From contig NZ_CP063195.1 of the NCBI RefSeq assembly GCF_028609885.1, positions 1,798,001-1,862,000 of the forward strand: a DNA stretch of 64,000 nt, read 5' to 3'. The notes under the pieces were generated by a model. The model had not been told where the DNA came from. It did no database searches and saw nothing but the letters and a program-made list of their open reading frames with translations. The DNA comes from Corynebacterium jeikeium (GTDB lineage Bacteria > Actinomycetota > Actinomycetes > Mycobacteriales > Mycobacteriaceae). Of this stretch, positions 5,301-46,178 are shown piece after piece. The translations under genes and the position numbers were made by a program. Each line of letters begins with the position of its first letter. The first letter of the stretch is position 1.

Positions 5301-6075
5301 GGTTCTTGGCTTTTGACGCCACCTCGTCCGTCACAATCAATTCCCGGCATGCATAAACCATCACCTGGTCTGGCTCCACCCCGGGGATGGTCCGCTGGTC
5401 GCCAACGCTAAAGGCGCGAACTTCCGTGATCTCGTCGCCCCAGAAGTCCACGCGGACGGGCATCTCCTCGGTCGCGGGGAAGATATCCACGATGCCACCG
5501 CGAATAGCGAAGTGGCCGCGCTTGCCCACCACGTCCACGTGCGTATAACCGAGCTCTTGCAGCCGGTGAGTGAGGGAATCGAAGTCTATTTCCTCCCCCA
5601 CCTTCAACCGCACCGGGGTGACCTCACCCAGGTTCGACTGCACAGGCTGCACCGCCGCGCGGGTCGGAGCCACCACGACCTGCAGGTTCTCGTCGCCCTC
5701 GTGCAGGCGGCGCAGCACGCGCATACGGGTGGACACCGTCTCCACAGCCGGGGAAAGCTTCTCGTGCGGCAGAGTCTCCCACGACGGGAACAGCTCCACG
5801 CGATCCCCCAGCATGTAGCGCAACACTGTGGTGAGGTCCTGGGCTTGGCGCCCCGTGGCCGTCACCACCAGCAGCGGGGTACGCTGCGCCAGCGTGCCGA
5901 CCGCGAAAGGCCACGCACCCTCCGGGGCTTGCATGTGCAGGCCCCCCTCCCCCAGGTGCGTCATCATCCCGCGCAGTTTCCCGTCCTGCGCGGCGGCTTT
6001 CAGCAGCCCCGCCAGGCTGGGCGCCGGATTTGAAGTGCGGTTGGCGTTGGCTTTGGGCGTGGCTGTCTGACTCAT
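2344..6075 (-). CDS. mfd: Transcription-repair coupling factor Mfd
   Basis: ATP-dependent translocase that removes stalled RNA polymerase at lesions and recruits UvrA. The order is N-terminal UvrB-like module, CarD-like RNA polymerase-interaction domain ([13 protein letters not shown]), RecG-like helicase with Walker [16 protein letters not shown] box ([15 protein letters not shown]), motif with [11 protein letters not shown], and C-terminal TRCF domain. About 1243 residues, normal for the family. The chosen ATG at 6075 gives MSQTATPKA; a TTG two codons upstream (6081) sits 8 nt after GGAGG and could be the true start. The gene points away from tRNA-Gln and is followed by mazG. Confidence 0.95.
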
Positions 6076-24594: not shown

Positions 24595-25866
24595 ATGCAA
24601 ACAACGGAAGCCGCTTTGCCACGATTGGAAAACTTCAGGCACCTCAAGTTCAGCCTCCCCGTTAAAATTGCGCTGAGCGTACTGCTGGTGCTTTCCGTTC
24701 TGCCGAAGATCTTCAACAGTCGCGGCTTCCACTACAACCTGGATCTGGACGTCTACCGGGTGGGAGCCCAGCGAGTCCTGGACGGCCAAGAGCTCTACAG
24801 CGGCCACTTCCACATCATCGGCGACACGTACCTGCCGTTTACGTACCCGCCGATTTCAGCCGTATTGTTTACTCCCCTGGCTGTGATGCCCTACCACCTG
24901 GCCGCCGTTTTGTTGGTTTGCGCCACGGTAGCCGTCACCTGGTGGGTTCTCGCCCACACTGTGCATTCTGCAGCACGCCTGGACCGCTCCTCTGCCGGGT
25001 GGGTGTCGGTAGTCCTCACCGCAGTGCTGATCCACTTGAGCCCCATTCACACCACCCTCGCCTACGGGCAGATCAATGTTCTGCTGATGGGCATGGTCTT
25101 TGCCGATGCGCTTGTGGTTCCGCGCCGTTATCGCGGCCTGCTCACGGGTGCTGCGGTTGCTATCAAATTGACGCCCGCAGTCTTCGGCCTGTGGTTCCTT
25201 CTGCGCAAGGACTGGGGTTCCATCCTGCGCATGGGCGCAGGCACGGTCGGCACCACAGCTCTAGCGTGGCTAATTCTGCCTCGCGATTCTTTGGAGTATT
25301 GGACACACACGCTGCGCGAAACCGGACGTATCGGCAACCACGAATACGCTCTGAACCAGAGCATTAACGGTCTGCTGTACCGTTTCGGCCTGCGGACGGA
25401 TGACTCTTCCAGTTTGTTGTGGGTACTGCTGGTGTGCGTTTCGCTGGCAGTCATCGCCTTCATCATGATCAAGCTTATGCAGGTACAGGCGCCAATCGTC
25501 GCGCTGTGTGTCAATTCCCTGTTTGCACTGCTGGCCAGCCCAGTCTCCTGGAACCACCACTGGTCGTGGGCTCCGGTGCTGCTAGTAGCTCTAGCCTGCT
25601 ACGCGATTGCTAACCCCACTTCCCCATTGGCCTCTCCGCGCTGGCTATGGGTTTCCCTGGTTGTCCTGGGATTCGCCGCCTTCGCCTTCGAGCCCACCGC
25701 TTTCGTTCCCTTCCAAGAACAGCGCGAGCTCGAATGGAATGCCTGGCAGGCGCTGCTGGGCAACTCCTACCTGTGGTGGACCATCCTGGCCCTGCTGGTG
25801 ATGGCGATTCGGCTAGCGCTTTACCGCGACAAAACTCCCGCCTCTGGGGCGAGCTCTGCCGCTTAA
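24595..25866 (+). CDS. GT87-family polyprenyl-phosphate-dependent mannosyltransferase
   Basis: 423 residues with about ten membrane helices. The Asp-rich loop between the first two helices (FHYNLDLDVYR) holds the likely catalytic Asp of the GT87/DUF2029 group. In Corynebacterium and Mycobacterium such enzymes use decaprenyl-phosphomannose to add alpha-1,2-mannose to lipomannan, lipoarabinomannan or PIMs. The extracytoplasmic and C-terminal parts are shorter than in MptA/MptB. The gene is divergent from ppk2, with TAATTA about 10 bases before the ATG as a possible -10 of a leaderless mRNA. Confidence 0.87.
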   Translation: MQTTEAALPRLENFRHLKFSLPVKIALSVLLVLSVLPKIFNSRGFHYNLDLDVYRVGAQRVLDGQELYSGHFHIIGDTYLPFTYPPISAVLFTPLAVMPYHLAAVLLVCATVAVTWWVLAHTVHSAARLDRSSAGWVSVVLTAVLIHLSPIHTTLAYGQINVLLMGMVFADALVVPRRYRGLLTGAAVAIKLTPAVFGLWFLLRKDWGSILRMGAGTVGTTALAWLILPRDSLEYWTHTLRETGRIGNHEYALNQSINGLLYRFGLRTDDSSSLLWVLLVCVSLAVIAFIMIKLMQVQAPIVALCVNSLFALLASPVSWNHHWSWAPVLLVALACYAIANPTSPLASPRWLWVSLVVLGFAAFAFEPTAFVPFQEQRELEWNAWQALLGNSYLWWTILALLVMAIRLALYRDKTPASGASSAA

Positions 25867-36221: not shown

Positions 36222-36830
36222 CTACGCAACAGACATGATCTGCTCGTAGTAAGAATCTGAAATCTTCTGCATGTCACCAGAAATATCTAACCCTTTGCGA
36301 TTGCGTGCATGACTTATTTTGGTTCGAGCACGGGCGCATGCCAGACAATCCCGGTGACCCCTTTTCGCGGTTGATTTAACAAGGTTAGGATTGACTAGCT
36401 CATGACCGTTCAAGCAGTGAGATTTACTCACTGCCCAGTGATTTCCGGCCTTTACTATGTCGTAGTTGTTATCGCTGGACGTGCCCCAACTCAAATTAGT
36501 TAGATGTGGGTTGGTCCGAACCGAATCGGCGTGAAGCGTCTCCATTCCGGCAGGGCACTCACCGACAAAAGTTGTCAGAACAAGCTGGTGAATCTGTTTC
36601 CGAATTCCCCGACGGTCACGATAAAGGGTTACCGATGGGTAACCGTTCACATTGAGATGTTGCTTAAGGTTTGTTTCAGGTGCAATGTGCCTTTGCCCGT
36701 TGCGGGTCGGCAGTTCACGCCTTAAGCTCTTGATTCGACCGCAAGTTGATATGCGGTAGAAACCTTCGTACCCCGGAACATCCGCCCACTTCTCGTCAGC
36801 ACACCCAGGGCAAGGTGTATAGTTACCCAT
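36222..36830 (-). CDS. HNH homing-type endonuclease with NUMOD4 motif
   Basis: 202 residues from the ATG at 36830, which has AAGGAG 10 bases upstream. The NUMOD4 motif (W-x-DVPGYEGFYRIS...GRIKSLRR) is at residues about 14-40, the HNH_3 part (IHQLVLTTFVGECPAGME, HADSVRTNPHLTNLSWGT) at about 80-125, and a zinc-finger-like region with CLNGHELV and CLACARAR near residues 140-175. It interrupts the tail operon between the distal tail and Gp37-like genes and looks like a free-standing homing cassette. Confidence 0.87.
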   Translation of the reverse strand: MGNYTPCPGCADEKWADVPGYEGFYRISTCGRIKSLRRELPTRNGQRHIAPETNLKQHLNVNGYPSVTLYRDRRGIRKQIHQLVLTTFVGECPAGMETLHADSVRTNPHLTNLSWGTSSDNNYDIVKAGNHWAVSKSHCLNGHELVNPNLVKSTAKRGHRDCLACARARTKISHARNRKGLDISGDMQKISDSYYEQIMSVA

Positions 36831-36861
36831 GCCATCATCACTCCTTACAGTGATCTTGGTA

Positions 36862-36909
36862 GCCCCGTAGCGATGGCCGTCGCTGCGGGGCCTTTCAGTA
36901 CCTATTATA
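36862..36909 (-). promoter_or_regulatory. Promoter and leader hairpin of the HNH gene
   Basis: A perfect TATAAT (minus strand 36909-36904) gives a start near 36897, about 67 bases before the HNH start. A stem GCCCCG.AGCGA / TCGCT.CGGGGC (36862-36891) lies in the leader and could sequester or stabilise the mRNA. No clear -35. Confidence 0.55.
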
Positions 36910-36934
36910 CACCTCACAAAGATTCAGTTAGTCA

Positions 36935-37721: not shown

Positions 37722-40700
37722 CTAGATCAGCTCCTTTCGACGAACAGCCACGTCAGACGCAGACACAACCGTCCTCACGCGCACGTTAGACCCGCTGGTC
37801 ACGCGCTTCAGCAGCTCATCGACCTCATCAGCCGTATACATATTCTCCCCACTCATGTGGATCGTGTACTCGCGTTGCACCCGATCGCGCGCCCCCGAAT
37901 ACTTCGGATCAAGCTTCCAATCCACACCAAACTTGCCCGCAGCATCAGCATTAGCCTTAGCCGCACGCAGGTAATCACCACGGATCTTCTCATTCCCCTT
38001 AGCGAAAGCATCCGCAGAATGATCAAGGGACTTCACCGCATACTCAAGACCCTTGATTGTCTCCTCAAGCGGGGTGACCTTCTCGTATAGATCGATCTCA
38101 GATCGGAAATCCTCAACCTCACGAGCCTGATCGCGGATCGAATCCTTGGCCTCGTAGATCGGCTTCAGCGACTCATTGACCTTAAGCGCGGTCTCCGCCT
38201 CCACCAGGCGGGGCAGCTGCGAGCGGATAACATCCATCGGGTCGCCACCACGCCACGCAACCGCACCCATCTGGGAAAACAGTCGCTGCATGTCCACATC
38301 ATCCAGCGTGATGCCGGACTCGGCCAGGACAGCATCCAAAGCCTTCTGCAGCGTCTCACGCTGGGCAAGCTGGCCACGGTATTCGTTAGCGAAACTGCCC
38401 TGCGCGCCCAACTGATAGCCCCAGCGCCCCAGAACATTCTTCCTAAGCGCCTTATCAGCCTCGAACATCTCAACCAGCAGCTTCGATGCCTGCGCGCCGC
38501 CCTGCGCCTCCACGAGATCAACACCGGCGACCTTCGCGGACATGCGGATCAGGCGCTCCTGCGCGACCAACAAATCCTGCTGGTTGCGAGCATTCTCGCG
38601 GGTCGCCTTAGCCAGCGCAGCCTCAGCCTGGATCTGCTCCACACGCGCCTGCAGCTCCCCACGGAGCGCCTGCGCCCGCGCCTGCTCATAGCGGAACAGG
38701 GCACTAATCGCAGTATCAGACCACTGCTCAAGCACACCCTCAGCCTCCAAGGCAGCAAAGGACAGGTACGTATCCCAATCCTCATGCAGCCCCATCAGCT
38801 TCAACTGCGCCGCCACAGCACCCTTACGAATCTCCTCATCCAGCTCCATACGGGCGCGCGCCACGGCAAGCTCACCCTCAGCAGCCGCGACCAGACGATC
38901 CTGCTGCGCCACACGAAGCTTAAACTCCGCGTCACGCTGCGCATTCGCGCTCCGCACCAACTCCTGCTGCAGTTTCGCCGCGTTATGCTGCAGCTCCACA
39001 ACCAACTTCGAGTAGGCGGCGATAGCCTCCCACGAATCAGCGACAGCCTGGCGAGACGCCAGCTGCACCTTGTAGATCCGCTCCACCAGCTCCTTAATCA
39101 TATCCACAAAGAATCTGACCAGGTCAATGCCAGTTTTCAGGTACTCGATAGCCATGCCCGCAGAAATACCAGCGGGTCCAGTCAGCGCAGCCATACCGGA
39201 CAATTGGTGCGCCACGCCACCCAGGCCGTTATCAGACGCGAGCTTCGCGGCACTACGGAAAGAGTCATCCAGCCCCGGCAGCAGATCGTGAAGCGGCATG
39301 TCCAGATTACGCACGGACTCTATGCGAGCCTGCGCCAGCTCTGCCTCAGCCTTCGCCACATCATCCGTGGACTTCTTCACGTCCTCGGAGCGCTTCTTCT
39401 CTGCCTCAGACTGCTTCTTCTGCGTCTCCTTACGGATCTTCGCTAGGCTCTTCTCGGCCTTAGCGATCTTGTCTGGCTTGCCGTCCTTGCGGGCGTCAGC
39501 CAGCGCCTTCTCAGCCTCCTTGATCTTCTCACTGGATTCTTTCTTGGCATCCTTGACAGCCGTTGCCGCTTCGCCCTTATCGGACTTCACGCTGCTTAGA
39601 GACTTCCGCGCCTCTGCCAGCGCCTTTTCCTTTTCGGCAATATTCGCCAGTCGGGAGGCCTGCGCCTCACGCGCATCCAACAACCCCTTCTCGGCGGATA
39701 GGAGCTTTTCGGTGATCTTCTGGATATTCTCGCCGCCGAGCATGCCCACGATCTCACCAAAGCGCCCCGCCAGCGCACGCGCCGTAACACCCTCACGGGT
39801 GGAGGGATCGGCGACCTTAGCCATGTGCTTCTCGAAAGCATTAACCTGCTTCGCCTGCACCATCGCCCAGTCCTTGATAGCGGGGACGAGCTTGCCCAGC
39901 TCCACGAAACCGCGGGACAGTACGCCCCACTGCTGGTTAGTGAGAACAGGTTCAGGTTTACCGGACTTATTGACCGCCACCTCACCGTGCTTCAGCCAAC
40001 CACCACGGTCATACAGTTTCGCACTCATCAAGTTGGCCAAATCGACGATACCGCCAGAGGCATAACCGGCACGGGTAGGCCACACAGCACCAGGACCACC
40101 GTAACGCTGCTTCGTCCACAAAACACCAGCCGTCAGGTTCGTTACCGGATCAAAACGATCATCCGGCAACCCCTCAAACGCCTGCGGATTCGCAGCACGA
40201 ACACCACGATACGTAGGCTCAATCACCTGCAAAAGACCACCAGAAGGTGTGCCCTTCGCCGCGTTAGAGTCCCAATTGTTCACCGCACGCGGGTTACCCG
40301 AGGACTCGATATCAATCTGCTTCAGCATGATATCGAGGTACTCCTCGCCATATCCAGCACGACGCAGAGCCTCACGAGCAGCATCCGCCCACTGAGACGC
40401 AGGACGAGCACCGCCACCGCCACCGCCCATCAGAGACGAGCCGAACTTCTTCGCCTTCTCAGCGATGAAATCCCACATCTTCTGGGACGCGGTCTTCAGG
40501 AACGCACCAGGCACATCAGAGAACCAAGAGCCGTTACCCTCGCCATCAAACTTGGCGATCTTATTGATAACGGCATCCCACGCCTTCTTTACGAGACTAA
40601 AGACGCTGGTAGCGGAGCTAACGGCAGACCCCATAGCGCCAGCAAAACCAACGCCAATGTCAGCCAGCGACTTCGACGCATCAAACTTCACGGGGCCATT

Positions 40701-43700
40701 CGTAGCCCAGTGAACGTGGTTCTGGTGGCCAGCATTAGTGCCAGCGCCGAAGTTAATCGGGTTGCCGTGCTTCAGATTCTGCCAGCCATCAAGCGGCCAG
40801 TGGATCAACTCCGCAGACGAGGGGAAAACCTTGTAGATCGCCCGCGCCAGCGCCTTCGACTCGCTAGACGGACGCTGCGTTTTATAGGTTGCCGGGTTCT
40901 GCCAGTCAGTAGCCTTCTGCGCACTGTAGTCATGGTACGAGCCAGGCTCGCTACGGGACGCAGAGGTCAGGTTGAAAACACCAGGGAAAAAGTGCCCCAC
41001 GAATTCGCCGTGTGACCGCTGCACAGCAGACAGCGCGCCAGCAAGGTTAGTGAATCCACCCTTGGCGAAATTGCCTAGGTCAAGCACGCCGCCAGTGGCG
41101 AAATGGCTCCGGCGCAGCTGGTTTTCCACACCATTTTTGCCACCCTGACGAGCAGCAGCGTTGATACGGTCAACCCAATCCTTACCCAGCGCCTTAGTCG
41201 CCTCAGGTCGCAGGATCGCCTCACCACCGGACAGGCCAATCCGCATACCCGTGCGAGGCTCCACAAACGTATACGGGTCACGCCCAGGGGTATATCCAGG
41301 CAGCACACCACCAGTGTTGAAGTTGATCTTCACCGGGGCGGGAGCCTTTAGGCCAGGGATGAATTTTGTCACGGCGTTAACGGCCTTCAATATGCCGTTA
41401 TTCCAGACCGTATTGACCACAAAACGTACCGGCTTAGCTGCGGCTTCCTTCAGGCCATCCCAGATTTTTCCAATAGCGTCGACGGTTTTAGAAAACCAAT
41501 CTTTCAGGGTATCTAGCCCGTCGCGCAATCCCTTGAAAGTTGGCTTGACCAGCTTATCCGCTACCCACTGGATGCCTTTACCCAGGTTATCCCACGCGGG
41601 CTTAATGACCCGCTCCCAAGCAAATTTGAAAGCGTCACCCACTAGCGAAACTCCGCGCTTGATATTTCCGAAAGTGGGGGAAATGAGTTTCCCCCAAACC
41701 CACTTCACGAAAGCACCGAAAGCCTCAAGGGTAGGGCGAATAATCGAATTGTAAATAATCGAAATACGCCCACCGGTTTGCCCAAATTGATCAGCAATCC
41801 AATTAAATACCGGCCTCAGCGCATTCTCCCACAGCCAAGTAGCAGCGACAGACAGTGCATCCCAGACCGGCTTTATGACGTTCTCCCACGTCCAAGCGAT
41901 CCCAGCGCCCATAGCCTGGAAAGATTCTCCGATCTGCTTAAACGTCGGCTGCAGTACGTTCTCCCACAGCCAAGTAGCAGCGGCAGATAGGGCATCCCAC
42001 GCAACCTTAATGACGGTCTCCCACTGCGAGAAAATAGTCCCCGCAGTAGTCGTAAACGCATCAGAAATGAAACCAAAAACGGGTTGCAGGATATTTTGCC
42101 ACAACCATGTAGCAGCATCAGAAAAAGCCTGGAAAACCGGCTGCACATAGGTCGCCCAGCCATTAGAAACACCAGTCGTCAGACCATCCCAAGCGATCCG
42201 AATAAGCTGCCAAGCCTGAGAGGCCTTCTCGCCGATCCAATCAAAAATAGGGACGAAAGTGTCTTTCAGCCACTGCCATGCGGCATTAAACGCATCCATC
42301 AGGGATTGCCAGACCTCGCGCCCCTTTTCCGTCTTAGTGAAAAAGACAGCCAACCCAGCCGCAACCGCAGCAATAGCCGTCACAATCAGGAAAATCGGAT
42401 TAGCATTCATCACCAGGTTCAACGCGGTCTGTGCAGCCGTCTGTGCCTTAGTGACAGCGGTCAGACTCGTGAACCACTTCAACAGACCGCCAGCAGCCGC
42501 GATCTTCGCCTGGATAGCCAGCAGCCCATACGCAGCAGCCAGAGTGCCAACCACAGCAGCCAACGGCTTAATCCACGCCTCATTCTTCTGCAGCCACTCC
42601 CCGAAGTCCTTAAAAGCCGGGACGAGCTTGTCAGTAACCCACGAAGACAGGCCAGCCATAGCGCGGGAAGCGAAGTCAAGTGCCGGAACCATGAGGTTGA
42701 ACACCGCAGTCGCCACAGGCTCAATCGCCAGCATCGCCTTCAGCTTGAAATTATCCCACTTCTCCGCAAAGTCGGCGGTCTCCTCAGCAACACCACCAAT
42801 CGTGTCACCAGACGCCCCAATCGAATCCATGAAATCGTCATACTCAAACTTCCCCGACTTCACAGCAGCGACAAAACCAGCGCCACCCTTAGCGCCGAAA
42901 ATCTTATTCGCAAGATCAATCGCCTCCATGTCCTTACCGGACTTGGACAGCTCATCGATCTTCTGGATCGTACCCCACAACGCCTTCTCAGGCTCTTTAC
43001 CTTCCTTGGCGAACACGCTCAGCGCCTTAGTCATAGACCCCAGAGTCTTCTCAGAGTCCAGACCAGCCTTGTCTAATGCGCCCAGCAGGCCAGCGGACTC
43101 ATTCAGACCGAAGCCAAACTGCTGCAGCGCCGGACCGGACTTCGACAGGTTGTCTGTGATCTCAGTGATAGACCGGCCAGTCGCCTGCGAAATACGGAAA
43201 AGATCATCCATCGCAGCAGGCGCAGCCTCACCCTTAATGCCGAACTGCTGCAGCGCGCCGGTCACCTTGTTGATGTCAGCGTCGATACCCATGCCCTGCA
43301 GTTGCTGGAACTGGGTAGTCAGCTTCTCCAACGGCTCGCCCGTAACACCCAAGCGCGTATTCAGGTCAGCCAGGGTCGTGCCGATCTCCGCAATATCCCC
43401 ACCAACACCAATCGAATTCTGCGCGACATTACGCAGGGACTGCTGTAGCCCCTCAAAAGCCGCACCAGACGCACCAGTACCCACACGGATAGTGTCGTAA
43501 GCGTCATCGAAAGACGCGCCAAGCTCATACGCAGCCTTACCGAGACTACCGATAGCACCAATCGCAGCACCAACACCAACCGCAATCTTGCCAATAGACT
43601 TCTTAAAGCTCTTGGCCTTCTCGTCACCATCACCCAGCGCGTCAGTGGTCTTGTCGATCCCCTTAGCCGCGTCTTCCTGCGCCTTCTTCAGCTTGCCGGA

Positions 43701-44159
43701 AGTATCAGACAGATCTTTCTGCTGATCTTCATACTTCTTCGCAGCGGCCTTAGCGTCGCCCTCAGCGGTCGCCAGATCAGTAGTGGCTTTGAGCACCTTG
43801 CCCTTGGCCTTCTCGACCTTCGCCAGCTCCGCAGTACCGGAATTCCCGGAGGCTACAGCCTTCTGGTACTTCTCCTCAGCAGCCTGCAACTCAAGCGTGA
43901 CAACCTTCAGATCCTGCTTCTTCTGCTCCTGCTTCGCCGTCGCCGCCTCAGAATCCCTAGCGAACTTCGCCAGCTTCGACTCAGAAGCCTTCACCTGCCG
44001 CTCAAGATTCGACACAGCGCTATCAAGCTCGCCGGTAATCGACTTACCAGCACGCTTACCAGCCTCCTTCGCAGGCTTCTCCAAACGCTCCGCGAACGCC
44101 TTCGACATGCCCTTGAAAACAGGCATGACAGGAACAGCAACAAAACCTAAATCCGCCAC
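37722..44159 (-). CDS. Tape measure protein with two peptidoglycan-hydrolase domains
   Basis: 2145 residues. N-terminal 180 residues are coiled coil (K/A/E-rich), then a tape-measure domain to about residue 480, two hydrophobic segments at about 525-605, and a Trp-rich 35-40-residue repeat (W-x-NV-x-PVWDALS-AATWLWEN) between about 620 and 900. Near residues 1060-1145 the pattern YHDYSAQKATDW ... NHVHW resembles LAS-type (M15) zinc peptidases; near 1250-1360 ESSGNPRAVNNWDSNA...GGLLQV is a soluble lytic transglycosylase. A Lys/Ala/Glu coiled coil at about 1490-1620 and a C-terminal helical part follow. It sets tail length and probably opens the wall. Confidence 0.95.
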   Translation of the reverse strand: MADLGFVAVPVMPVFKGMSKAFAERLEKPAKEAGKRAGKSITGELDSAVSNLERQVKASESKLAKFARDSEAATAKQEQKKQDLKVVTLELQAAEEKYQKAVASGNSGTAELAKVEKAKGKVLKATTDLATAEGDAKAAAKKYEDQQKDLSDTSGKLKKAQEDAAKGIDKTTDALGDGDEKAKSFKKSIGKIAVGVGAAIGAIGSLGKAAYELGASFDDAYDTIRVGTGASGAAFEGLQQSLRNVAQNSIGVGGDIAEIGTTLADLNTRLGVTGEPLEKLTTQFQQLQGMGIDADINKVTGALQQFGIKGEAAPAAMDDLFRISQATGRSITEITDNLSKSGPALQQFGFGLNESAGLLGALDKAGLDSEKTLGSMTKALSVFAKEGKEPEKALWGTIQKIDELSKSGKDMEAIDLANKIFGAKGGAGFVAAVKSGKFEYDDFMDSIGASGDTIGGVAEETADFAEKWDNFKLKAMLAIEPVATAVFNLMVPALDFASRAMAGLSSWVTDKLVPAFKDFGEWLQKNEAWIKPLAAVVGTLAAAYGLLAIQAKIAAAGGLLKWFTSLTAVTKAQTAAQTALNLVMNANPIFLIVTAIAAVAAGLAVFFTKTEKGREVWQSLMDAFNAAWQWLKDTFVPIFDWIGEKASQAWQLIRIAWDGLTTGVSNGWATYVQPVFQAFSDAATWLWQNILQPVFGFISDAFTTTAGTIFSQWETVIKVAWDALSAAATWLWENVLQPTFKQIGESFQAMGAGIAWTWENVIKPVWDALSVAATWLWENALRPVFNWIADQFGQTGGRISIIYNSIIRPTLEAFGAFVKWVWGKLISPTFGNIKRGVSLVGDAFKFAWERVIKPAWDNLGKGIQWVADKLVKPTFKGLRDGLDTLKDWFSKTVDAIGKIWDGLKEAAAKPVRFVVNTVWNNGILKAVNAVTKFIPGLKAPAPVKINFNTGGVLPGYTPGRDPYTFVEPRTGMRIGLSGGEAILRPEATKALGKDWVDRINAAARQGGKNGVENQLRRSHFATGGVLDLGNFAKGGFTNLAGALSAVQRSHGEFVGHFFPGVFNLTSASRSEPGSYHDYSAQKATDWQNPATYKTQRPSSESKALARAIYKVFPSSAELIHWPLDGWQNLKHGNPINFGAGTNAGHQNHVHWATNGPVKFDASKSLADIGVGFAGAMGSAVSSATSVFSLVKKAWDAVINKIAKFDGEGNGSWFSDVPGAFLKTASQKMWDFIAEKAKKFGSSLMGGGGGGARPASQWADAAREALRRAGYGEEYLDIMLKQIDIESSGNPRAVNNWDSNAAKGTPSGGLLQVIEPTYRGVRAANPQAFEGLPDDRFDPVTNLTAGVLWTKQRYGGPGAVWPTRAGYASGGIVDLANLMSAKLYDRGGWLKHGEVAVNKSGKPEPVLTNQQWGVLSRGFVELGKLVPAIKDWAMVQAKQVNAFEKHMAKVADPSTREGVTARALAGRFGEIVGMLGGENIQKITEKLLSAEKGLLDAREAQASRLANIAEKEKALAEARKSLSSVKSDKGEAATAVKDAKKESSEKIKEAEKALADARKDGKPDKIAKAEKSLAKIRKETQKKQSEAEKKRSEDVKKSTDDVAKAEAELAQARIESVRNLDMPLHDLLPGLDDSFRSAAKLASDNGLGGVAHQLSGMAALTGPAGISAGMAIEYLKTGIDLVRFFVDMIKELVERIYKVQLASRQAVADSWEAIAAYSKLVVELQHNAAKLQQELVRSANAQRDAEFKLRVAQQDRLVAAAEGELAVARARMELDEEIRKGAVAAQLKLMGLHEDWDTYLSFAALEAEGVLEQWSDTAISALFRYEQARAQALRGELQARVEQIQAEAALAKATRENARNQQDLLVAQERLIRMSAKVAGVDLVEAQGGAQASKLLVEMFEADKALRKNVLGRWGYQLGAQGSFANEYRGQLAQRETLQKALDAVLAESGITLDDVDMQRLFSQMGAVAWRGGDPMDVIRSQLPRLVEAETALKVNESLKPIYEAKDSIRDQAREVEDFRSEIDLYEKVTPLEETIKGLEYAVKSLDHSADAFAKGNEKIRGDYLRAAKANADAAGKFGVDWKLDPKYSGARDRVQREYTIHMSGENMYTADEVDELLKRVTSGSNVRVRTVVSASDVAVRRKELI

Positions 44160-45148: not shown

Positions 45149-45180
45149 GATGGTTCTCCTGGTTCTTGGTTCGTGGTTCG

Positions 45181-45228
45181 AAAAAGGAGGGCGGAGCATG
45201 ACCCGAACCAATAAAGTCATGCTCGCCC
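45181..45228 (-). terminator. Strong intrinsic terminator between major tail protein and chaperones
   Basis: On the minus strand GGGCGAGCATGAC pairs with GTCATGCTCCGCCC (one bulge) over a 13-base loop, followed by TCCTTTTT. It would keep the major tail protein much more abundant than the chaperones and tape measure. Confidence 0.85.
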
Positions 45229-45231
45229 AGC

Positions 45232-45277
45232 GCGGGCAGGGGGAATCGAACCCCCAACCTCAGCAACCATTACCCGC
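45232..45277 (-). other. tRNA-like acceptor/T-arm minihelix
   Basis: Minus-strand GCGGGTA pairs with TGCCCGC (7 bp, one GU) and encloses GGGGGTTCGATTCCCCC, a perfect consensus T-arm; the 15 bases between carry no D- or anticodon arm. The geometry is that of a tRNA minihelix, or of the 3' end of a tRNA. A full tRNA cannot be drawn. Two copies of CACCCCCGAGG (45277-45287, 45292-45302) lie next to it. Confidence 0.5.
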
Positions 45278-45327: not shown

Positions 45328-45443
45328 CTAGACGCCTGTTGCCGGAGACTCTGCCTCCGGCTGCGTATCGACACCAGGGGTGCTCTCCCCATCGGAGGCC
45401 GGCGTGCTATCGCCGTTGTTATCCGATGGGGTTACTGTTCCCC
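45328..45443 (-). other. Open -1 reading frame: C-terminal extension of the major tail protein
   Basis: After slippage at the GGG codon the -1 frame reads 37 codons to a TAG at 45328: begins GTVTPSDNNGDSTPASDG, and is rich in Pro, Ser, Thr, Asp and Glu. The fused protein would be 283 residues. Its composition is that of a flexible exposed tail segment rather than an Ig-like domain. Confidence 0.72.
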
Positions 45444-45444
45444 C
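45387..45444 (-). promoter_or_regulatory. Programmed -1 frameshift signal in the major tail protein gene
   Basis: On the minus strand TCG GGG GAA CAG TAA ends the zero frame. The heptamer G GGG GAA (45444-45438) allows the glycine tRNA to re-pair fully at -1. Six bases later begins a perfect 10-bp stem CCCCATCGGA / TCCGATGGGG (45387-45431) whose loop holds a second 5-bp stem CGGCG/CGCCG. The spacing and strength are ideal for -1 frameshifting, and the -1 frame stays open past the stop. Confidence 0.75.
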
Positions 45445-46178
45445 GATGCTGCCTTGCCTTCGTCCTTGATCTCGTGCAGGGTCACACCGTCATCGTCAGT
45501 GTCCTTCACCGGCACATAGCCAGTCAGACCGGAAGCGGAGCCGTCCGGAGTGAACGCCTTACCTGCCTCAACCTGCTTCTGTAGATCAGCGATGGTCTTA
45601 AAGACCTTCGGCTTAACCTCACGCACGGAACCATCCTCGTCAACCTTGTAGAAACGCTGCTCAAACATCAGCTCGTCATCGCCGTTTTCGTAGTCGATGG
45701 CGAGGGAGCGCGGCTGCGGATCAGTACCGTAGGTGCGATCCTGCACAGACAGCAGGGCAGGCTTACGGGAGACCTTGATCTCCACAACACCGGACTGGTA
45801 CTTGTACACGCGGGCGACCATGGCCTTCGCAACCTGACTGGTGTGCGCCAGGTACAGAACACCGTCCTTCTCCGTAGTATCCGGCCACTCAATGTGGCGC
45901 AGAACAGCAGTGCCAGGGATCAGGTCGACCGTGCCGGTAACAGCACCAGCAGTGAAGCTGGTTGCGGACTGGCCACCAGTGAGGTTGGTCTTGTTGCTGG
46001 TCACCTCACGGGTCTCGCCATGAGTAGAGTCGGTAGGCTCCACACCAGCGGAGTGCCACGGGCCAACGAAAGTGCCCGTATCAATATCAACGTGGGCTGC
46101 ATCCTCGTCAAAGCAGAAGAGGACCTCACGGTCCTCAAGCACCTTCACATTCAGCCCTACTGCGCGGTTCTGAGACAT
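45432..46178 (-). CDS. Major tail protein (tube subunit)
   Basis: 248 residues, ATG at 46178 after a purine-rich GAGAGGGG. N-terminal MSQNRAVGLNVKVLEDREVLFCFD and a beta-rich body with a hydrophilic C-terminus (DGVTLHEIKDEGKAASGEQ), as in siphovirus tube proteins. Followed by a frameshift signal and strong terminator, and preceded by a hairpin. The most abundant tail protein; probably made in a minor longer form as well. Confidence 0.86.
   Translation of the reverse strand: MSQNRAVGLNVKVLEDREVLFCFDEDAAHVDIDTGTFVGPWHSAGVEPTDSTHGETREVTSNKTNLTGGQSATSFTAGAVTGTVDLIPGTAVLRHIEWPDTTEKDGVLYLAHTSQVAKAMVARVYKYQSGVVEIKVSRKPALLSVQDRTYGTDPQPRSLAIDYENGDDELMFEQRFYKVDEDGSVREVKPKVFKTIADLQKQVEAGKAFTPDGSASGLTGYVPVKDTDDDGVTLHEIKDEGKAASGEQ

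Follow-up and report, generated by a model that had tools for sequence, protein, structure and literature searches.

Results

A tail-tube gene with a probable recoding signal at its 3′ end

The window, the whole 64,000-nucleotide stretch of Corynebacterium jeikeium DNA analysed here, carries on its minus strand the tail genes of a prophage, with the gene under study followed by two genes in chaperone position and a tape measure gene (Table 1). The predicted structure of its zero-frame product matches phage tail-tube proteins, which supports its assignment as a tail-tube protein, while Pfam, PHROGs and the PDB gave no identifying sequence match. The earlier note had called it the major tail protein; the fold backs this reading where Pfam and PHROGs are silent. 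The tail operon also contains an HNH endonuclease of the homing type with NUMOD4 (36222–36917, minus strand).

Table 1. Features of the tube gene and its putative recoding region (window coordinates).
Feature	Coordinates	Strand	Remarks
Major tail (tube) protein gene	45432..46178	minus	Zero frame, 248 aa
Tube gene zero-frame end		minus	TCG GGG GAA CAG TAA; C-terminus ...ASGEQ-stop
Slippery heptamer G GGG GAA	45438..45444	minus	GGG and GAA are zero-frame codons, in phase
Spacer CAGTAA, 6 nt	45432..45437	minus	Contains the zero-frame stop TAA, 45434-45432
Presumed stimulatory hairpin, two-tier	45387..45431	minus	Outer stem, internal loop, inner stem
Outer stem, 10 bp	45431-45422 / 45396-45387	minus	CCCCATCGGA / TCCGATGGGG; Watson-Crick 10/10
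Inner stem, 5 bp	45415-45411 / 45404-45400	minus	CGGCG/CGCCG
−1 frame extension, 36 added residues	45328..45438	minus	TVTPSDNNGDSTPASDGESTPGVDTQPEAESPATGV; from translation and codon score; stop TAG 45330-45328
First tail-assembly-chaperone-position gene (TAC1), 117 aa	44795..45148	minus	Between tube and tape measure, like CL31 genes annotated tail assembly chaperone
Second chaperone-position gene, 204 aa	44181..44795	minus	Overlaps the TAC1 stop as TAGTG
Tape measure protein gene	37722..44159	minus	PHROG 8927, E 4e-171

The 3′ end of the tube gene has the layout described in the earlier note: a G GGG GAA heptamer, six bases, then a perfect 10-bp stem with an inner stem, and the zero-frame stop within the spacer. 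Both the coordinates and the fold agree with that description. The hairpin has a folding energy of −28.0 kcal/mol (shuffle mean −13.3 kcal/mol, z −5.7, equalled by 0 of 200 shuffles) and starts exactly 6 nt after the heptamer. A perfect 10-bp stem 4–9 nt downstream was found for 7 of 1238 heptamers in 236,410 bases, counted on both strands and in any phase over the window and 28 loci, several of which overlap; these seven are the window site, its counterpart in locus L014 and five at three distinct places. At arbitrary positions such a stem occurred 128 times in 66,578. Reading the sequence, we saw no U-tract after the hairpin, and no CCC adjoins the stop in the last codons (GGG GAA CAG TAA) as it would at a +1 CCC-stop site.

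The signal in two relatives

L014 is a Corynebacterium prophage with a tube protein 90% identical to that of the window. The 17 nt GGGGGAACAGTAACCCC are identical in both, with heptamer, spacer and stop all kept. Within the outer stem, three of the ten pairs are altered on both sides, seven are unchanged and none is broken; within the inner stem, four of the five pairs are unchanged and the fifth falls in an alignment gap. The resulting L014 stem comprises 11 bp of other sequence (−32.8 kcal/mol, z −4.1), and the −1 frame is open, with a composition similar to that of the window.

L017, an IMG/VR contig whose tube protein is 57% identical, ends in GAG GGA AAC TAG. Its heptamer is G GGA AAC, its 6-nt spacer holds the stop TAG, its −1 frame is open, and its two-tier hairpin (−37.6 kcal/mol, z −3.4, with 1 of 200 shuffles as good) has one T-T mismatch in the outer stem. 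The hairpin starts 6 nt after the heptamer in all three loci. As regards signal position only, the heptamer ends one codon 5′ of the stop in the window and L014, and immediately 5′ of it in L017. By eye, an internal Shine-Dalgarno sequence 5′ of the heptamer is present in L014 (GAGGAGG), weaker in the window and not clear in L017.

The window, L014 and L017 thus share the elements of a −1 cassette: a heptamer in phase, a downstream structure and a coding-like −1 frame. Comparing the stem in related prophages, a check named in the earlier note, showed that L014 keeps the signal with compensatory changes and that L017 has an equivalent. At the level of sequence, these findings speak for a programmed −1 frameshift where the tube gene ends.

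The −1 frame and its peptide

In the window the −1 frame is open from GGA to TAG. Tandem slippage would append 36 residues to residue 247, giving the 283-residue form that had been predicted. Openness alone is not rare, as 37% of single-base shuffles of the extension keep the frame open. Codon-usage scores per codon in the −1, 0 and +1 frames were 0.08, −0.66 and −0.84 for the window, 0.18, −0.55 and −1.19 for L014, and 0.28, −0.52 and −1.01 for L017. Only the −1 frame scores positive in each; no other frame has a codon use like that of the phage's own genes.

The three extensions (36 residues in the window, 41 in L014 and 35 in L017) are rich in Pro, Ser, Thr, Gly, Asp and Glu, so that the Pro/Ser/Thr/Asp/Glu-rich character first described for the window is seen in all three. 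Pro, Ser, Thr and Gly make up 36–57%, there are two or three residues from the set FILMVWY, and Lys and Arg together number 0, 0 and 1, the one being the re-paired slip codon AAA. This bias was matched by 0, 0 and 1 of 20,000 single-base shuffles, respectively. The extensions of the window and L014 hardly align, and selection at the peptide level therefore shows itself in nothing but composition and codon use. At 283, 290 and 292 aa, the extended proteins sit inside the range of homologues that are long in frame (257–345 aa). With 35–41 residues, the extensions are too short for an Ig-like or FN3 decoration, which takes 87 residues in SPP1.

Virion glycosylation is described in mycobacteriophages (PMC12363180). 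Pfam scans of 20 ORFs of the window, beyond which the prophage extends, found no phage glycosyltransferase for a Ser/Thr-rich tail; the single GT87 match (24595–25866) lies among host-like genes left of the prophage.

Tube-gene ends in the wider family

DNA comparison gave no match among 50,697 phage records and none among plasmids, and protein comparison with the phage records gave two distant matches, phi16 and CL31. As a single query the window tube protein found no IMG/VR relative; alignments A1 and A3 recovered 10 and 9 loci there, in partly overlapping sets. Within the genus, matches at E 1e-3 came from 13 of 201 genomes and matches at E 1e-20 from 11 of 242. When the search was widened to the family (E 1e-15) and the class (E 1e-10), profile A3 matched 2 of 401 and 1 of 394 genomes, all from the same genus. 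The 17-nt GGGGGAACAGTAACCCC occurred in one IMG/VR contig only (L016), which we rejected as a carrier of the site because the match is a chance one inside an unrelated gene.

We surveyed 24 non-identical tube-gene ends, some closely related; L016 was excluded, as was L013, which had no match at E 1e-3. Three of the ends (the window, L002/L014 and L017) have a heptamer in frame no more than 25 codons before the stop, always in the last codons, so that support at the DNA level comes from three loci in two clades. The expectation that close relatives would retain the signal was borne out by L014; the more distant L017 has a counterpart with another heptamer, and the other 21 loci do not keep the signal. 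Sixteen of these 21 encode a longer protein in frame. The other five are short, with neither a heptamer nor a long in-frame tail (L008, 55% identical; L010, L026, L027 and L028, 37–42%), so members of the wider family can do without a tail.

A protein search returned 77 homologues, divided by their length after a conserved G-x-A-F motif into 51 long and 26 short. By eye, the long ones mostly have Pro/Ser/Thr/Asp/Glu-rich ends, and seven (P0014, P0028, P0030, P0049, P0057, P0058 and P0062) have a conserved domain of about 85 residues. We also noted by eye, in P0018, P0019, P0022 and P0074, an in-frame end motif DxDGDGxPD...VQ (DxDGDGxxD-like) that resembles calcium-binding repeats; these ends had no Pfam match at E 0.01.

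Short homologues tend to stop in a characteristic way. Ends in GE, GEQ/GES, GN or P occur in 21 of 26 short but 2 of 51 long proteins (Fisher p 3e-12, a descriptive value only, since the classes were set after viewing the data and the proteins are related). GE and GN are the residues spelled by the known slip sites. Eleven of the 26 short homologues end in proline (P0008, P0013, P0017, P0020, P0023, P0025, P0027, P0055, P0060, P0064 and P0070), and such ends perhaps match the +1 shift at CCC-stop described for SPP1, Listeria and 936 phages. The other short homologues are represented by protein sequences, so their slip sites are guesses from terminal residues; −1 sites are predicted in this way for P0001–P0004, P0007, P0024, P0032, P0042, P0076 and P0077.

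A tree of the tube core, with the extension omitted, had 93 rows (77 proteins, the window and 15 loci; L007, L010–L012, L026–L028 and L033 were left out), and 36 of its 89 inner branches were weak. On this quick tree, at least ten changes separate long from slip-type short proteins, with six other short rows uncounted. Sisters can differ in state: P0024 ends in ...GTEGN and P0036, 91% identical in the alignment, continues in frame; likewise P0004 ends in ...GES and P0005 and P0006 continue in frame.

The chaperone genes

Long-tailed phages are described as widely forming a G/GT fusion by −1 frameshifting (PMC5009743), and GGGGGAA was proposed as the shift site in the chaperone genes of phi16 (PMC5506516). 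In phi16, CL31, L011 and L026 we found GGGGGAA close to where the first chaperone gene stops; in phi16 and CL31 the site reads GGG GAA NNN TAA, the same layout as at the window's tube gene. Thus, whereas G/GT systems (gp14A of phi16, actinophages) have the heptamer in the chaperone gene, the window has it in the tube gene. The first chaperone gene of the window, L014 and L017 contains no slippery heptamer anywhere. It ends in a TAG that overlaps the GTG of the next gene, whose frame is closed immediately before that start, in the window one codon upstream, so a G/GT-type fusion is not expected in the window. From these reading frames, the usual chaperone frameshift seems to be absent from this subgroup. 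Because its cousins have the heptamer in the chaperone gene and the subgroup has none there, the same heptamer appears to serve the tube gene here. There was no simple exchange between the two sites, since L005, L006, L007, L008, L020 and L025 have the same closed overlap without a tube heptamer. Across the loci the chaperone gene was assigned automatically, wrongly in L010 and L037 at least, and in L017 by hand.

Other elements between the tube and chaperone genes

In many loci (L003, L006–L008, L010, L012, L017, L023, L025–L028 and L032; weakly in the window, 45149–45231), a segment ahead of the first chaperone gene, mostly located in the loop of a hairpin, has complementarity to the ribosome-binding site that immediately precedes the start codon; GTGGTGATTCC and GGAATCACC-ATG are one such pair. 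In several loci it is also complementary to a nearby downstream segment. Its sequence varies between phages, with complementarity kept. The complementarity beats shuffles at p ≤0.01 in 13 of 18 regions, some of them closely related and one (L009) with a doubtful start; it was not above shuffles in the window, L014, L005 (which has G:U pairs), L009 and L037. As judged from pairing, the segment may be a switch for chaperone translation.

tRNA-like pieces also lie between the tube and chaperone genes in the window (45232–45277, minus strand), L014 (about 5895–5940), L003, L004, L009, L018 and L032. A full tRNA-Ile is present in L018/L030 and a tRNA-Asp call in L032/L033. Rfam tRNA matches in L003, L004 and L009 are short; by eye, the anticodon arm is much reduced or missing in L004 and L009, and the window and L014 have only an acceptor-like and T-arm-like remnant (by eye). 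These pieces are possibly a processing signal within the late operon.

Discussion

Mechanism and alternatives

The sequence data make it highly likely that the tube gene ends in a programmed −1 site, which would yield a main 248-residue form and a minor 283-residue form with a flexible acidic tail. Comparison supports the slip site, the hairpin, the coding-like −1 frame, their conservation and the tube fold. From this layout we infer production of the extended form and its presence in virions, as well as its shift efficiency, surface position and function. Ribosomes with GGG in the P site and GAA in the A site would be paused by the two-tier hairpin 6 nt downstream, and a fraction would slip back by one base, their tRNAs re-pairing with GGG and GGA; Glu-tRNA on GGA needs one G:U pair. 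Slipped ribosomes would bypass TAA and add 36 residues up to TAG. The minor form would have the same tube domain and a Pro/Ser/Thr-rich acidic C-terminal tail projecting outside the tail tube. In most relatives, 51 of the 77 homologues, a longer C-terminus is in frame and would be present on every subunit; the window's group seems to ration it by recoding.

What is the tail for? It is most likely a brush with a weak role at the cell surface or in solubility or repulsion, and not a structural part. One alternative is that the site works and the extension has no function, being a side effect that is tolerated where translation is limited or paused at the tube gene end. The rapid divergence of the extensions and the lack of a long tail in L008, L010 and L026–L028 would fit, as would the reported dispensability in the laboratory of the frameshifted FN3 extension of SPP1 (PMC8718954, PMC6316719). 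We consider this rather unlikely, as comparable tails occur in frame in most homologues and the state changes at least ten times on the tree, which together suggest that the tail itself is kept. By analogy with the dispensable SPP1 form, it is probably an accessory surface feature.

Decay of a former in-frame tail by a recent indel, leaving the −1 frame as a relic beside an incidental hairpin, would fit the longer in-frame C-terminus of most homologues, and L003/L022 do appear, by eye, to retain out of frame what is left of a longer C-terminal domain. It is very unlikely, because despite 10% protein divergence L014 shares the slip site and spacer exactly, shows compensatory changes in the stem and keeps the frame open, L017 has the same layout with a different heptamer, and L003 itself lacks a heptamer. 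Still less probable is that the hairpin is an mRNA element (for 3′ end stability, processing or attenuation between the tube and chaperone genes) and the −1 frame open by chance: hairpins shortly after the tube stop are common among relatives and the same intergenic stretch holds further structured elements, but the hairpin lacks a following U-tract, the heptamer spacing is exactly 6 nt in three of three loci, codon use in the −1 frame is coding-like, and almost no shuffle reproduced its composition (0, 0 and 1 of 20,000). We give almost no credence to transcriptional slippage on the G5 run, in which some mRNAs gain an extra G and would encode a similar extended protein, as G5 is short compared with known slippage runs, a conserved hairpin at a fixed ribosomal spacing would not be expected, and GGGAAAC of L017 has no run of this type.

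Relation to known recoded proteins

Programmed −1 frameshifting in the window would not be the first recoding of a tube gene; extended tube proteins of this kind are already known, and the present case is therefore a variant. Phage T7 also makes a minor extended structural protein, by a −1 shift in gene 10A/10B, in another host and from another protein. The T7 extension is described as not Ig-like (PMC5009743). −1 frameshifts in head and tail proteins are likewise described for Lactobacillus phage A2 (PMC5009743); its host differs, as may the tail protein concerned.

SPP1 makes a short main form and an extended minor form of its tube protein (gp17.1 and gp17.1*) from one gene, present at 3:1 in tails (PMC6316719, PMC8718954). 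The window is like SPP1 in having its putative recoding signal in the last codons of the tube gene. In contrast, the described SPP1 shift is +1 at CCC UAA and adds 87 residues with an FN3 domain, while that of the window would be −1 at G GGG GAA with a hairpin and add 36 low-complexity, acidic residues. The frameshifted MTP-TpeX of the 936 group was detected in virions of PhiC0139 by Western blot and immunogold labelling (PMC4759559), and tsh of Listeria phages PSA, A118 and A500 is extended by programmed frameshifting at the stop (PMC5009743). Both are described as +1 shifts, at CCC-UAG and CCC-UGA, in contrast to −1 in the window, and the TpeX extension is large, with a carbohydrate-binding domain predicted in it, rather than a short tail. 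The earlier note had cited lactococcal p2 and PSA as precedents. PSA does have a frameshift-extended tube protein, but its mechanism, like that of SPP1 and 936 TpeX, is given as +1 at CCC-stop (PMC5009743, PMC6316719, PMC4759559). The grouping in PMC6669499 places p2 with the longer MTPs, apart from the frameshifted group.

In the SEA-PHAGES actinophage frameshift set, GGGGGAA is listed as the sole heptamer of the ‘fivetwo’ motif class, found in every one of its thousand motifs, and G:U re-pairing on GGA is discussed there (PMC10885494). What would be new here is a −1 heptamer with a hairpin in a tube gene, an extension that is short and acidic, and a repeated change between in-frame and recoded states. 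Titles and abstract openings, from a collection covering few subscription journals, contained no recoded tube gene in a Corynebacterium phage.

Implications

A broader proposal, which we regard as possible but put forward tentatively, is that this family of Corynebacterium siphophages keeps a flexible tail and uses its dose as an evolutionary dial, with repeated switching between in-frame and recoded states, independent slip devices (−1 GGGGGAA, −1 GGGAAAC and perhaps +1 CCC-stop) and a chaperone frameshift missing in one subgroup. As sister phages have the same tube domain with a similar tail in frame or apparently behind a frameshift, the dose of tail decoration is directly comparable, which makes a testable case for why phages produce two tube proteins. 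The data also suggest that annotation of corynephage tube genes may omit a C-terminal part, and that the use of GGGGGAA in actinophages extends beyond chaperone genes.
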